From: Actinoplanes sp. NBC_00393 | Lineage (GTDB): Bacteria; Actinomycetota; Actinomycetes; Mycobacteriales; Micromonosporaceae | DNA: 64,000 nucleotides | Reading direction: 5' to 3' | Assembly (NCBI RefSeq): GCF_036053395.1 | Contig: NZ_CP107942.1 | Location: 834,501-898,500, forward strand | In this document: positions 6,040-59,245 of the stretch, piece by piece | Layout: each line of letters opens with the position of its first letter | Position numbering within the stretch: position 1 is the stretch's first letter | Translations under genes and position numbers: made by a program | Notes under the pieces: generated by a model | Database searches by the model: none | What the model saw: only the letters and a program-made list of their open reading frames with translations | What the model was told of the DNA's origin: nothing

Positions 6040-7068
6040 ATGTCGATATGGATCAGTGAACTCGCCGGGACTCTGCACCACGAGAGCATCGAGTCGGCGC
6101 TGCTGCGGGACAACCCGCTCGGGGACCCGCATGTGCGGCCGCTCTGGGTCTACACGCCGCCGGGGTACGAGCAGGGCGACACCCGCTACCCGAGCATCTA
6201 TGTGATCCAGGGGTACTCGGGCCAGGTCACCATGTGGGCCAACAAGCAGGCGTTCCGGGATTCGTTCATCGAGAACACCGACCGGCTGTTCGCCGAGGGC
6301 CGGGCGCCGGGCTGCATCCTGGTCTTCGTGGACGCCTGGACCGCTTACGGCGGGTCGCAGTTCGTCGACTCGCCGGGCACCGGGAAGTACCACTCGTACC
6401 TCTGTGACGAAGTCGTGCCCTGGGTGGACGCGCATTTCCGGACGATCGTGGACCGGGAGTCGCGGGCCATCTCCGGGAAGTCGTCCGGCGGGTTCGGCGC
6501 GATGATCAGCCCGATGCTGCGGCCGGATCTGTTCGGCGCGCTGGCCACGCACGCCGGGGACGCGCTCTACGAGTACTGCTATCTCAACGAGTTCGCCAAG
6601 GCCACCCGGGCGCTGCGCGCCTACGACCACGACATTCAGGCCTGGTGGAAGGACTTCAACTCGCGGGTCGCGTTCACCAAGGAGGAGGACATGCCGCTCA
6701 CGCTGCTGCTGGGCTGCACGGCCGCCTTCTCGGCCGACGCCGACGGCACGCCGCGGCTGCCCTTCGATCCACGGTCCGGGCAGCTCATCCCGGAGATCTG
6801 GGAGCGGTGGCTGGCCTGGGATCCGATCCGGATGATTGATCGGTACGCCGACGAGCTCCGTTCCCTGCGCGCGGTCTGGATCGACGCCGGAACCAGCGAC
6901 GAGTGGTTCCTCGACCTGGGTGCGGAAGCGTTCAAGGAAGGTCTGCGCCGCGTCGGCCTGCCGGACGAGAAGGTCGCGTTCGAGCTGTTCCCGGGCAAGC
7001 ACGGCGGCATCGATTACCGCTATCCGCTCGCCGTGGCCTGGCTCGCCGAACGACTGCGACGGGACTGA
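6040..7068 (+). CDS. alpha/beta-hydrolase, putative esterase (enterochelin esterase-like)
   Basis: The 342-residue protein has no signal peptide and matches the putative-esterase fold (esterase D / enterochelin esterase type). The nucleophile elbow is GKSSGG with S148 as likely catalytic serine. The Trp/Tyr-rich N-terminal half contains YVIQGYSGQ and the C-terminal GKHGGIDYRYP supplies the likely catalytic histidine. It lies between a chitinase and an EccC-like gene with its own 80-bp upstream gap. The substrate cannot be inferred from sequence; a trehalose-ester or siderophore-ester link would be speculation. Confidence 0.82.
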   Translation: MSIWISELAGTLHHESIESALLRDNPLGDPHVRPLWVYTPPGYEQGDTRYPSIYVIQGYSGQVTMWANKQAFRDSFIENTDRLFAEGRAPGCILVFVDAWTAYGGSQFVDSPGTGKYHSYLCDEVVPWVDAHFRTIVDRESRAISGKSSGGFGAMISPMLRPDLFGALATHAGDALYEYCYLNEFAKATRALRAYDHDIQAWWKDFNSRVAFTKEEDMPLTLLLGCTAAFSADADGTPRLPFDPRSGQLIPEIWERWLAWDPIRMIDRYADELRSLRAVWIDAGTSDEWFLDLGAEAFKEGLRRVGLPDEKVAFELFPGKHGGIDYRYPLAVAWLAERLRRD

Positions 7069-20400: not shown

Positions 20401-20432
20401 GCCACTTCCGGGCTGAAGCACGTGGCGGCCCG

Positions 20433-20647
20433 GCTGACGCTCAGCGCTGCTTCGCAGCGCTTGAGGCAGCGTTGGTGGTCAGCCGGGGGTTGCTGGCTGA
20501 CGCTCAGCGCTGCTTCGCAGCGCTTGAGGCAGCGTTGGTGGTCAGCCGGGGGTTGCTGGCTGACGCTCAGCGCTGCTTCGCAGCGCTTGAGGCAGCGTTG
20601 GTGGTCAGCCGGGGGTTGCCGGCTGACGCTCAGCGCGGTTCAGCCGG
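20433..20647. repeat. tandem array of a 63-bp hairpin repeat (3 full copies plus a partial)
   Basis: Three near-perfect 63-bp units start at 20433, 20496 and 20559, and a truncated fourth starts at 20622. Each unit begins GCTGACGCTCAGCGCTG and contains an internal perfect hairpin, AGCGCTGC-TTC-GCAGCGCT. It ends with GGTCAGC, which can pair with the starting GCTGAC. The array separates two convergent genes, and the fourth, partial unit runs into the LysR stop codon at 20640-20642. The open frame through it is an artefact of the 63-bp (21-codon) period. Related units occur at 35389, 40347 and 59200. Confidence 0.9.
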
Positions 20648-32574: not shown

Positions 32575-32945
32575 AAACGCCGGCGATTCTGGTGGCAGCG
32601 CCGGCAACGTTGGTGGCGTGCGGCGATGCTGAGGGAAGCCGCTGGCAACGCTGGTGGCTCGCCTAGCTCCGGGCCCGTGGCCTGCACGACATGGCCCACG
32701 CGGCGATGCTGGCTGCAGCGCCCGGCAACGCTGCCGGCGTGCGACGATGCCGACGGGAGAGCGCGGCAACGCTGCTGGCGTGCGACGATGCCGGCGGGAG
32801 CGCGCGGCAACGCTGCTGGCGTGCGACGATGCCGACGGAGCGCGCGGCAACGTTGGTGGTGTGCGACGACGCCGGCGGGAGCGCGCGGCGACGCTGGCGG
32901 TAGTCCCGGGCAAACGCCGGCGTAGCGCTCGGCACGCTGGCACGG
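32575..32945. repeat. degenerate tandem repeat of about 40 bp
   Basis: Six or more copies of a unit close to GCGCGGCAACGCTGCTGGCG-TGCGACGATGCCGGCGGGAG follow one another, clearest between 32700 and 32900, with periods of 40-41 bp. Copies differ by a few substitutions. Long open frames in several phases run through it and are Arg/Ala-rich artefacts. It lies between the cupin gene and the membrane protein gene, both on the minus strand. Confidence 0.8.
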
Positions 32946-32948
32946 AAC

Positions 32949-33048
32949 GCCATAACGCACAGCTGAGCACCCATTTCGGAGCCTTTCGATCATCCGGCTG
33001 TGCGTTATGGCTGCCTCAGCCGCCGGGAGACAGCCATAACGCACAGCC
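32949..33048. repeat. three copies of GCCATAACGCACAGC, two forming a 16-bp perfect inverted repeat
   Basis: GCCATAACGCACAGC occurs at 32949-32963 and 33033-33047, and its exact reverse complement lies at 32996-33011. The second and third copies form a 16-bp perfect inverted repeat with a 21-base loop. These words are AT-richer than their surroundings. They could be a transcription terminator or a protein-binding site. Confidence 0.85.
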
Positions 33049-35160: not shown

Positions 35161-35434
35161 AACGCGGGGGTACGAGCAATCGCCCTCACACCCGACATCC
35201 GCGCGATGCCTAACCACCCAAGGCCCCAACGCGACCGCCGGGCCCATGCAGGTGGTCCCGCATGCAGACCATCCCCCATCCCAGCCCTCAGCCGACCGGA
35301 AGCGCTGTCCCCGCGCGTAGGCCCGGCTGGCTCTGACGGCTGTTCCGCAGCCCGCGAAACAGCCGTGAGCGCCAGCCGAGGCGGGCCGGCTGACGCTCAG
35401 GGCTGCCTGCGCGCCCGTTGTGCAACCCTGGCGG
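35161..35434. other. convergent intergenic region with hairpin repeats
   Basis: No gene is seen. Two units related to the 63-bp repeat family occupy its right half. One, at about 35330-35378, has arms ACGGCTGTT and AACAGCCGT. The second begins GCTGACGCTCAGGGCTGC at 35389 and ends GGTCAGCC at 35433-35440. The methyltransferase stop codon (35435-35437 on the plus strand, read as TGA on the minus) lies inside this last word. Confidence 0.7.
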
Positions 35435-35440
35435 TCAGCC
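35389..35440. repeat. single copy of the 63-bp repeat family
   Basis: GCTGACGCTCAGGGCTGC matches the start of the 20433 units at nearly all positions. The copy ends with GCGGTCAGCCGGGTTCGGGG, equivalent to GGTCAGCCGGGGGTTG there. It separates the convergent TetR and methyltransferase genes and supplies the latter's stop codon. Confidence 0.7.
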
Positions 35441-39423: not shown

Positions 39424-40350
39424 ATGCGTGCGGACCGGCTCGTCGCCACCCTGTTGCTGATGCAGAACCGTGGGCGGGTCACTGCCGCGGAACTCGCCGC
39501 CGAACTGGAGGTCTCGGTGGCGACTGCGCGCCGTGACCTGGAAGCGCTGTCGGCGGCCGGGATCCCGGTCTATCCGCAGCCGGGGCGGCACGGCGGCTGG
39601 TCGTTGGTGGGCGGCTCGCGTACCGATCTCAGTGGTCTGTCGGCGGCTGAGGCGCAGGCGCTGTTCCTGCTGGTGGGCCCGGCTGCAGCGGTGTCCGGCG
39701 AGGCGAAGGCGGCGCTGCGCAAACTGCTGCGGGCGTTGCCCGCGCCGTTCCGGACCGACGCCGAGGCAGCCGCGTCCGCGACGCTGATCGACCCGGCGGG
39801 CTGGGGTGCGCTCGACCGGGAGCGGCCGGACGGCGTCGGCCTGCTGCAGGACGCCGTGGTGCGACAGCGCCGGATCCGCTTCACCTATCAGGGCAGTTCC
39901 CGCGAGGCCGATCCGTGGGGCCTGGTCGACAAGAACGACATCTGGTACCTGATCGCCGGCACGTCCCGCGGGCAGCGCACCTTCCGCCTGGACCGGATGT
40001 CGTCGGTGACCGTCACCGGGTCCGGCTTCGAACGGCCGGCGGACTTCGCCCTGGACTCGGCCTGGGAGCGGGTGGTCGGGGAGGTCGAGGAGAAGCGGGC
40101 GCGCACGTGGGCGACGCTGCTGATCGCGTCCCGGTTCGTCTGGGTGCTGCGTGACCACTTCGGGCGGCACTGCGAGGAGGTGTCGGTGCTGGACGACGGC
40201 CGCAGCCGGGTCCGGGTGGGAGCGCCGACCCCGCTGGACATCGCCCGCACCCTGGCCGGATGGGGCGCCGACGTCGAGGTCCTCGACCCACCCGAGGTAC
40301 GCGCCTCGCTGGCCCGAATCGGCACCGAGCTGGCGGCCCTGTACAGCTGA
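39424..40350 (+). CDS. WYL-domain HTH transcriptional regulator
   Basis: The 308-residue protein has an N-terminal HTH_11 (LVATLLLMQNRGRVTAAELAAELEVSVATARRDLEAL), then the WYL domain with RIRFTYQGSSREADPWGLVDKNDIWYLIAG and RTFRLDRMSSV. A C-terminal WCX-type extension ends the chain. WYL domains sense small ligands or nucleic acids. It is divergent from the VOC gene, sharing a palindromic operator. The stop codon TGA is the TGA of GCTGACGG, the first word of the tandem repeat that follows. Confidence 0.93.
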   Translation: MRADRLVATLLLMQNRGRVTAAELAAELEVSVATARRDLEALSAAGIPVYPQPGRHGGWSLVGGSRTDLSGLSAAEAQALFLLVGPAAAVSGEAKAALRKLLRALPAPFRTDAEAAASATLIDPAGWGALDRERPDGVGLLQDAVVRQRRIRFTYQGSSREADPWGLVDKNDIWYLIAGTSRGQRTFRLDRMSSVTVTGSGFERPADFALDSAWERVVGEVEEKRARTWATLLIASRFVWVLRDHFGRHCEEVSVLDDGRSRVRVGAPTPLDIARTLAGWGADVEVLDPPEVRASLARIGTELAALYS

Positions 40351-40523
40351 CGGCCAGTGTTGCTTCCCGGCCGTTGAGGCAGCAGTGGGCGTCAGCCGTG
40401 GGGTTGGGCTGACGGCCCGTGTTGCTTCCGGGCCGTTGAGGCAGCAGTGGGCGTCAGCCGATGGGGTTGGGTTGACGGCCACTGCTGCTTCCCGGGCGTT
40501 GAGGCAGCGGTGGCGGTCAGCTG
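40347..40523. repeat. three tandem copies of the 62-63-bp repeat family
   Basis: Units start at about 40347, 40409 and 40472. Each begins G[CT]TGACGGCC, contains GTTGAGGCAGC and ends GTCAGC followed by a GGGGTTGG-rich word. They match the 20433 array in length and layout (GCTGAC start, central GCTGCTTC, TTGAGGCAGC, GTCAGCC end), with about a quarter of positions changed. The array lies between convergent genes and includes the WYL stop codon. Confidence 0.85.
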
Positions 40524-40533
40524 GAAGGCGAGG

Positions 40534-58243: not shown

Positions 58244-59131
58244 GTGCAACTGTCATCCGTCCCCACCCGGGCTCGCCGGTTCCTCGTCACGGCGGCCACC
58301 GCTCTCGCCCTCGTCGCCGTTCCCGGCGCCACCGCCGCACAGGCCGCCGACAACCCGTACGAGCGGGGCCCGGCGCCCACCCGGGCCGCCCTCGAGGCGT
58401 CCCGCGGCCCGTACAGCGTCTCCACCACGTCCGTCTCCCGCCTCGCGGCCACCGGATTCGGCGGCGGCGAGATCTACTACCCGAGCACCACCAGCGACGG
58501 TACGTTCGGCGCGATCGCGATCTCGCCGGGCTTCACCGCGTACTGGTCGAGCATCTCCTGGCTCGGGCCGCGCCTGGCCTCGCACGGCTTCGTGGTCATC
58601 GGCATCGAGACCAACACCACGGCCGACCAGCCGGCTTCGCGTGGACAGCAGTTGCTCGCCGCGCTGGACTACCTGACCCAGCGCAGCTCGGTGCGCACCC
58701 GGATCGACTCGTCCCGGCTGGCGGTGGCCGGCCACTCGATGGGCGGCGGCGGCAGCCTGGAGGCGGCCAGTGACCGGCCGTCCCTGCAGGCCGCGGTCCC
58801 GCTGGCGCCGTGGAACCTGGACAAGTCGTGGAGCGAGCTCCGCGTGCCGACCCTGATCATCGGTGGCGAGAGCGACTCCATCGCCTCGGTGAGCAGCCAC
58901 TCGATCCCGTTCTACAACAGCATCCCGTCGTCGGCGGAGAAGTCGTACCTGGAGCTCAACAACGCCAGCCACTTCTTCCCGCAGACCACCAACACGCCGA
59001 CCGCGGTGCAGATGGTCTCCTGGCTGAAGCGGTTCGTCGACAACGACACCCGCTACGACCAGTTCATCTGCCCGGGCCCGAGCACCGGCCTGTCCATCTC
59101 GGACTACCGGAGCACCTGCCCGCTGAGCTGA
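58244..59131 (+). CDS. secreted cutinase-like polyester hydrolase (PETase family)
   Basis: The 295-residue protein has a signal peptide (residues 1 to about 35, ending AAQA) and a mature chain starting [16 protein letters not shown]. It resembles Thermobifida cutinase TfCut2 along its length ([85 protein letters not shown]). The triad is S165 (GHSMG), D211 and H243. The C-terminal cysteine pair (ICPGP...STCPLS) forms the conserved disulfide. Natural substrates are cutin-type polyesters; relatives hydrolyse PET. AAAGGAG precedes GTG 58244. Confidence 0.93.
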
Positions 59132-59143
59132 TCATCGATGCAG

Positions 59144-59182
59144 CCCTGAGCGCCAGCCGGTCTGTCCGGCCGGCGCTCAGGG
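59144..59182 (+). terminator. strong hairpin after polyesterase gene
   Basis: CCCTGAGCGCC (59144-59154) pairs with GGCGCTCAGGG (59172-59182), with an inner CCGG/CCGG stem, 12 bp past the stop codon. No T-tract follows. The adjoining bases 59183-59240 carry a degenerate copy of the 63-bp repeat family (CCAGCCGATGGGTTGGGG matches the 40450 region). Confidence 0.75.
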
Positions 59183-59199
59183 TCGTTGAAACCCCGCCG

Positions 59200-59245
59200 G
59201 AACAGCCCTGAGGACCAGCCGATGGGTTGGGGTGAGCGGGACCGC
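59200..59245. repeat. degenerate copy of the 63-bp repeat family
   Basis: CCTGAGGACCAGCCGATGGGTTGGGGTGAGCGG (in part) aligns with GTCAGCCGATGGGGTTGGGTTGACGG in the 40347 array. It lies between convergent genes, like the other copies. Confidence 0.55.

Follow-up and report, generated by a model that had tools for sequence, protein, structure and literature searches.

The window, by which we mean the whole 64-kb stretch of DNA analysed here (71% G+C, from a single-contig genome of 11,433,213 bp, G000), carries at several of its gene ends copies of a dyad-symmetric repeat, most of them in short head-to-tail arrays. The preliminary description had placed four such sites – near 20, 35, 40 and 59 kb – between convergent genes, and Pfam matches on both sides (FMN reductase/LysR, TetR/O-methyltransferase and WYL/LacI) agree with this at the first three; at 59 kb only the + strand gene, which is PETase-like, has a match, the − strand frame having none. 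The units were called with a covariance model (R1) and are listed here in order of position:

20432..20484, + strand: array A, unit 1 (R1 70.1 bits, E 5e-16)
20495..20547, + strand: array A, unit 2, an identical copy (R1)
20558..20610, + strand: array A, unit 3, an identical copy (R1)
20621..20645, + strand: array A, unit 4, truncated (R1 E 0.22, and the sequence itself)
32996..33048, − strand: isolated palindrome of the family, additional to the preliminary description (R1 45.2 bits, E 1.5e-9)
35325..35377, + strand: two-unit array, unit 1, arms diverged but palindrome kept (R1 43.2 bits, E 5e-9)
35388..35440, + strand: two-unit array, unit 2 (R1 51.4 bits)
40345..40397, + strand: array B, unit 1 (R1 70.5 bits)
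40407..40459, + strand: array B, unit 2 (R1 62.2 bits)
40470..40522, + strand: array B, unit 3 (R1 67.5 bits)
59144..59182, no strand assigned: strong palindrome with 17-bp arms and a 5-nt loop, between frames ending at 59131 and 59392
59168..59220, − strand: degenerate unit (R1 21.8 bits, E 0.0018)

The arrays reported at 20433 and 40347 are thus confirmed, with R1 units at 20432–20645 and 40345–40522, whereas the supposed single copy at 35389 turns out to be the second of two units. Near 59200, where a degenerate copy had been noted, a weak R1 match does exist, yet the most striking feature there is the palindrome with 17-bp arms. The isolated palindrome at 32996–33048 differs in arm sequence and lies near a 41-bp tandem repeat (32717–32896).

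What had been described as a hairpin unit of about 63 bp is indeed a repeat of this period, but the unit itself is 53 bp long and is followed by a spacer of 9–10 bp, giving a period of 62 or 63 bp. Position i lies opposite position 54−i: an outer stem of 7 bp (GGCTGAC/GTCAGCC) is followed by a weak zone of 2 nt, inside which come a 13-bp inner stem and a 9-nt loop. Among 236 pairs of adjacent units, the spacing is 62 bp in 139, 63 bp in 90 and larger in 7; array A is read by TRF as 3.3 copies of period 63 with 99% match. Full units at the 20-, 35- and 40-kb sites have R1 E-values of 4e-16 to 5e-9. As + strand RNA, six window units are predicted to form G+C-rich hairpins of −31 to −39 kcal/mol, with −33 kcal/mol for 20433–20488 and a fold z-score of −5.47 for 40470–40524 (array B unit 3). 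Neither the window nor five array regions gave an Rfam 15 match at the gathering score.

The family extends far beyond the window. A pattern of its conserved positions matches 666 times on the forward and 670 times on the reverse strand of the genome, compared with 0 for the reversed pattern, which excludes chance occurrence; as the pattern is nearly palindromic, the two counts describe the same set of about 670 units. Among the matches listed, the stretches 1.493–4.457 Mb and 7.182–9.166 Mb are without zero-mismatch units, and these span the expected terminus (~2.82 Mb) and origin (8.53 Mb). R1 finds matches at E 1e-6 in 18 of 60 genomes of the genus, and a stricter general pattern matches 8 of 200 genomes of the family, all eight from this genus although 44 genera were sampled (G000 is counted in both sets); among the genomes searched, the repeat is confined to the genus of Actinoplanes. 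In a second single-contig genome of this genus (G010), a variant whose core reads GGGTG matches 126 times on the forward strand. The one protein tested has its nearest named relative in Actinoplanes aureus (86% identity), and the general unit pattern, with up to two mismatches, has no match in 37 named loci. In A. aureus, the ortholog of the convergent junction downstream of the gene ending at 40350 carries, as read by eye, a different palindrome (locus L040, ~6395–6600), followed by partial repeats whose + strand is G-rich.

Multiplication of the units into head-to-tail arrays is local: for 251 of 306 units the closest relative lies in the same array, and spacer likeness is 0.85 within arrays, 0.41 between arrays and 0.33 as expected from shuffled letters.

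Placement relative to genes was examined in 78 merged regions of G000 (1,643,002 bases), obtained from 81 stretches – 51 picked for high-scoring arrays, 29 spread over the genome and the window itself – with genes called by a simple codon-usage caller, whose stops are good and whose starts are rough. The number of arrays depends on the definition, being 71 at up to three mismatches and 75 when extended. The 71 arrays (307 units in 1.64 Mb) lie between convergent genes in 40 cases, between tandem genes in 28, between divergent genes in one and inside a called gene in two, while the array-free gaps (n = 1274) comprise 209 convergent, 810 tandem and 255 divergent ones. Relative to gene orientation, the comparison proposed in the preliminary description, the arrays thus show a convergent preference (40/71 against 209/1274, Fisher p 2e-13; 4e-17 against gaps of at least 60 bp), with just 1/71 in a divergent gap, but the tandem and intragenic cases make it a preference and not a rule. 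Distances from stop codon to array are often short, 47 of 108 being at most 50 bp, and 12 of 108 have exactly the value that makes the unit's TGA the stop codon. The overlap of this kind reported for the window is real: the TGA of array B unit 1 ends the WYL-domain gene (to 40350), and unit 35388..35440 contains the TGA of the O-methyltransferase gene (− strand, ending at 35435). At these two stops (40348 and 35435), and at the 12 distances just mentioned, the units look as though they had eaten into the ends of genes.

Whether the stems show compensatory change, as the preliminary description would have it, depends on the size of the array. In arrays of one or two units (33 distinct units), covariation exceeds all 300 shuffles; in arrays of at least three, it does not rise above shuffles, either in units 1 to n or in first units. 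The first alignment, built from arrays, likewise gave no covariation above shuffles and served as an early argument against a hairpin. Relatives side with the small arrays: in 44 units (39 from G010 and five from a further genome, G016), taken from among the matches listed and with one strand picked per unit, pairing, doubly changed cells, pair types and covariation score were matched in 0 of 500 shuffles, though the number of doubly changed pairs was reached by 79 of 500.

The longer arrays are polar with respect to replication. Polarity was scored by comparing the strand that carries G.T-type pairs with the leading-sense strand of the replichore. Among extended arrays of at least three units in G000, these pairs lie on the leading-sense strand in 56 of 56, and the sign flips between 2.45 and 2.99 Mb, the antipode of dnaA being at ~2.82 Mb; of the extended arrays of one or two units, 11 of 19 agree, seven are opposed and one is tied. 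When strict units are counted, 66 of 71 arrays run with the replichore, four run against it and one is tied. The 56 longer arrays comprise 32 convergent ones and, between tandem genes, 11 on the leading and 13 on the lagging strand, and strict arrays between tandem genes follow replication on the leading (14/14) as on the lagging strand (14/14), which rules out transcription as the determinant: array polarity follows replication, independently of gene direction.

The same holds in G010, where 17 of 18 arrays of at least three units follow the replichore when all pairs are counted, the remaining one being a tie (20 fetched regions, all picked for arrays; dnaA at 1,765,366). These arrays have array-specific spacers and periods of 83–188 bp, and lone G010 units are near-perfect palindromes without polarity. 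An asymmetric pattern gives a similar picture for clusters built from 100 of its 124 matches (those among the matches listed): 38 of 47 clusters agree and nine disagree, or 17 and three of the 20 clusters with at least two matches. Four of the disagreeing clusters lie near 5.27–5.60 Mb, which might reflect a local inversion or arrays of mixed make-up; two of those arrays agree once all pairs are counted.

Inheritance of a single polar mobile element was rejected as the source of this polarity, given the array-specific spacers, the other periods and spacers of G010 and the lack of clear polarity in arrays of one or two units. Nor do tandem repeats in general behave in this way: on the leading-sense strand, the family divides into 59 keto and 3 amino, and intergenic repeats of other kinds into 75 keto and 56 amino. 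Ten of the latter rows (eight keto, two amino) have period 63 and are probably relatives that escaped recognition. A fixed direction in which arrays grow could be the sole cause, but need not be invoked.

Within an array, polarity is acquired from the second unit onwards. In G000 arrays of at least five units, the ratio of G.T to A.C pairs is 90:63 in the origin-proximal bin and 5- to 8-fold beyond it, and in G010 arrays of at least four it is 15:11, then 24:4, 30:5 and 28:1, so that the origin-proximal unit is balanced and the bias climbs across the next two or three. T/(T+A) in the first four G010 spacers rises in parallel (0.63, 0.71, 0.79 and 0.82). The spacers of longer G000 arrays consist, on the leading-sense strand, of 0.464 G, 0.254 C, 0.222 T and 0.060 A; spacers are keto-rich on this strand in 46 of 56 arrays in G000 and 15 of 18 in G010, 10 and 3 not being so, and the loops share the bias. 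Genome-wide skew was rejected as its source, array-free intergenic DNA in G000 having only 0.510 G/(G+C) and 0.515 T/(T+A). In units 1 to n, G.G mismatches rise alongside G.T (481, against 124 C.C). As predicted for DNA, the leading-sense strand folds more stably in 48 of 56 longer arrays (mean −1.9 kcal/mol), with no advantage in the other eight, and in 10 of 19 small arrays; by unit, the difference is −0.09 kcal/mol for unit 0 and −2.36 for later units.

The genes beside the arrays carry a composition footprint of their own. Irrespective of the reading direction of the flanking genes, the strand that leads away from the array is G-rich on both sides; the keto excess, mainly of G but with T close to the array, extends for about 1 kb and includes synonymous sites. 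Around G000 arrays of at least three units, outward G/(G+C) at 4-fold sites is 0.692 at 0–150 bp (bootstrap 0.659–0.723) and falls through 0.626, 0.586 and 0.549 to 0.529 at 1–1.5 kb, with a positive skew in 52 of 56 arrays; in G010 it falls from 0.714 to 0.522 (15 of 18 positive). Arrays of one or two units have 0.630 and then 0.505–0.534 in G000 (16 of 19 positive) and 0.515–0.560 in G010 (seven of nine). At control junctions, inward-reading genes have 0.51–0.53 and outward-reading genes at tandem controls 0.47–0.48, with 369 positive against 349 not. The dependence on array size is weak (Spearman 0.19, p 0.10).

Two simple sources of this skew were considered and rejected. It is not a property of any inverted repeat, as generic 12-bp inverted repeats in G000 have no outward G excess (0.48–0.51), although 18 such repeats in tandem gaps of G010 have 0.547 G nearby, so that this control is clean only in G000. 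Cytosine deamination alone does not account for it either, since at 4-fold sites G is gained chiefly at the expense of C, while G+C hardly changes.

The reading that best joins these observations, and to which we give about an even chance of being right, is that these are REP-like palindromes whose arrays act as recurrent sites of replication trouble, from which DNA synthesis would radiate outward. A lone unit would be a palindrome tolerated at gene ends, its symmetry kept by compensatory change, and local multiplication would turn such units into head-to-tail arrays. Palindromes, and arrays above all, may then hinder or break the replicating chromosome; the replisome would first run into the unit nearest the origin, after which synthesis for repair or restart would proceed outward in both directions, the new outward strand gaining G and T in place of C and A over evolutionary time. 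As the fork always comes from the origin, synthesis beginning at the unit met first would leave the remainder of the array on the leading-sense side, so that units and spacers past this point would become keto-rich on that strand while the first unit stays balanced; outward synthesis in both directions would at the same time explain both flanks. Several observations fit this reading less well. The footprint on the terminus side is no weaker in longer arrays, although an event confined to the first unit should make it so, and its dependence on array size is slight. The 10 and 3 arrays whose spacers lack the keto excess, the eight in which the leading-sense strand has no folding advantage, the disagreeing G010 clusters of the asymmetric pattern and the G excess near generic repeats in tandem gaps of that genome also count against it. 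Singleton stem substitutions within arrays run against it at face value, G>A (74) and T>C (69) outnumbering C>T (45) and A>G (33) when read from the majority to the minority letter, but they are unpolarisable, the odd unit often being the origin-proximal one.

Candidate enzymes for such events are encoded in G000, namely the hairpin nuclease SbcD (177 bits) and the mismatch nuclease NucS (151 bits). In E. coli, palindromes form hairpins at forks that are cut by SbcCD, but the palindromes concerned are hundreds of bp long; the same source sets the in vitro limit of SbcCD at palindromes of 20–36 bp, by which, it states, natural genomic ones are spared (PMC4245961). The imperfect 53-bp unit lies above this limit, and its cleavage is putative. 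NucS acts on G-T, G-G and T-T mismatches, and its processing spans less than 20 bp in M. smegmatis (PMC11551767), which means that NucS alone cannot yield a 1-kb footprint. Speculatively, mispairs that are NucS substrates put G or T opposite G or T, and synthesis beyond the reach of NucS would then give the bias.

Among the alternatives, the one that survives best is that the units are bidirectional terminators or mRNA 3′-end hairpins, ending or protecting both transcripts, with copy number incidental. We consider it possible, though clearly less probable than arrays as sites of replication trouble. The convergent enrichment with avoidance of divergent gaps, the many stop-to-array distances of at most 50 bp, the strong predicted RNA folds of the window units and the compensatory changes in one- and two-unit arrays and in relatives all speak for it, but gene ends are also the best-tolerated place for any inserted element, 209 convergent gaps manage without the repeat, and TTTT occurs within 12 nt on either side of just one of 339 units. 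Above all, a bidirectional terminator does not predict replication polarity, the strongest signal here: polarity tracks replication and not gene direction, and the outward skew is present also beside genes that read away from the array.

A further possibility, in our judgement an unlikely one, is selection for hairpins on one strand, whereby arrays would persist only where the lagging template folds and the leading template does not, so that at most one sister is cut; G.T pairs would be tolerated on one strand, with A.C on the other. The better folding of the leading-sense strand in most longer arrays (and in 10 of 19 small ones) fits this, as does the finding in E. coli that a perfect palindrome cut on both sisters is lethal, whereas an interrupted palindrome cut on the lagging template is repaired (PMC4245961). 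Spacers and loops, however, are free of any need to pair and are equally keto-biased, and G.G rises together with G.T, so that a general strand bias would be required anyway.

More doubtful still is that the units are REPs which a Y1 (RAYT/IS200-like) transposase carries, as single-stranded DNA, into the template of the lagging strand; their orientation relative to replication would thereby be set. The imperfect hairpins and the replichore orientation fit the lagging-template insertion known from IS200/IS605 and TnpA-REP biology (PMC6006769), and the tandem REP arrays of Pseudomonas fluorescens SBW25 take the forward orientation around 2 Mbp and the reverse one around 4 Mbp (PMC3116915). A PF01797 search of G000, positive when run on E. 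coli, found no intact RAYT and just two partial Y1_Tnp matches (L068 and L069, at 3.49 and 3.44 Mb), one of which contains an internal stop; the frame at L068 is no more than a short fragment that looks IS200-like from its motif. Array-specific spacers and the differing periods in G010 point, moreover, to local growth of the arrays, those of one or two units lack clear polarity, and the skew extends into flanking genes. Least probable of all is selection on both sides for C-rich, G-poor RNA upstream of the hairpin as Rho loading sites: the strand read toward the array is C-rich, but the skew is found also where the neighbouring gene reads away, reaches ~1 kb into coding sequence with strength at synonymous sites, and leaves the polarity inside arrays unexplained.

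As to class, short imperfect palindromes in many extragenic copies are characteristic of REP (palindromic unit) and BIME families, and the Actinoplanes repeat shares this feature (666/670 matches, two of 71 arrays inside a called gene). In BIMEs, palindromic units alternate in orientation, and RAYT-associated REPs have a tetranucleotide of the GTAG/GTGG type adjoining the hairpin. The Actinoplanes arrays are instead head-to-tail (period 62/63) with one polarity per array on balance and no alternation, and their spacers contain no conserved tetranucleotide, although positions 1, 2 and 6 lean to G. Of the REP/BIME-like role once suggested, the REP-like build and placement are therefore a fair description and the BIME-like part is not; because the defining features tested are absent, we class the repeat apart from both RAYT-associated REPs and BIMEs, from which it also differs in its 53-bp unit, in the lack of an intact RAYT in the search above, and in longer arrays that are polar with replication and flanked by outward skew. 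MIRU-type mycobacterial repeats resemble it as actinobacterial tandem intergenic repeats that overlap stop codons, but they are non-palindromic and oriented with transcription.

REPs of enterobacteria and pseudomonads are frequent between convergent genes (PMC1525189). The nearest parallel is in SBW25, whose REP/REPIN arrays are head-to-tail, five being forward near 2 Mbp and six reverse near 4 Mbp, but are built from larger modules that combine two types of REP, and RAYT genes are present in that genome (PMC3116915); the Actinoplanes arrays, unlike these modules, show polarity one by one with unrelated spacers, and have a composition footprint of which the available text on SBW25 makes no mention. 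With the work on SbcCD and palindrome fragility in E. coli (PMC4245961), the common theme is hairpins at forks, the distinction of leading and lagging template and break repair, although the palindromes there are engineered and hundreds of bp long, whereas here they are natural 53-bp units with an evolutionary footprint. In the literature searched, which covered few subscription journals, neither the repeat family nor a local outward skew around such repeats is described, nor is replication polarity of such arrays beyond the remark on SBW25 (PMC3116915). REP-like palindromes at gene ends are thus already known; of array-by-array acquired polarity with an outward footprint we saw no description in the texts available, and both are apparently undescribed.

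A natural repeat family that marks the direction of replication from sequence alone, in 56 of 56 longer arrays and 17 of 18 in a second genome, is accompanied here by a synonymous-site footprint in the adjacent genes. To our knowledge, there is still no agreement on the effect of REP-like repeats on the chromosome, and these marks make it testable whether replication in wild bacteria is disturbed, and local mutation shaped, by natural palindromes as short as these. Tentatively, and on compositional grounds, the arrays may be standing break or restart sites over long times – small bidirectional starts of synthesis that write a kb-scale, replication-directed mutational footprint. If so, array polarity would be a sequence record of fork direction, usable to infer it, and the composition of gene ends beside arrays would not be gene-specific.
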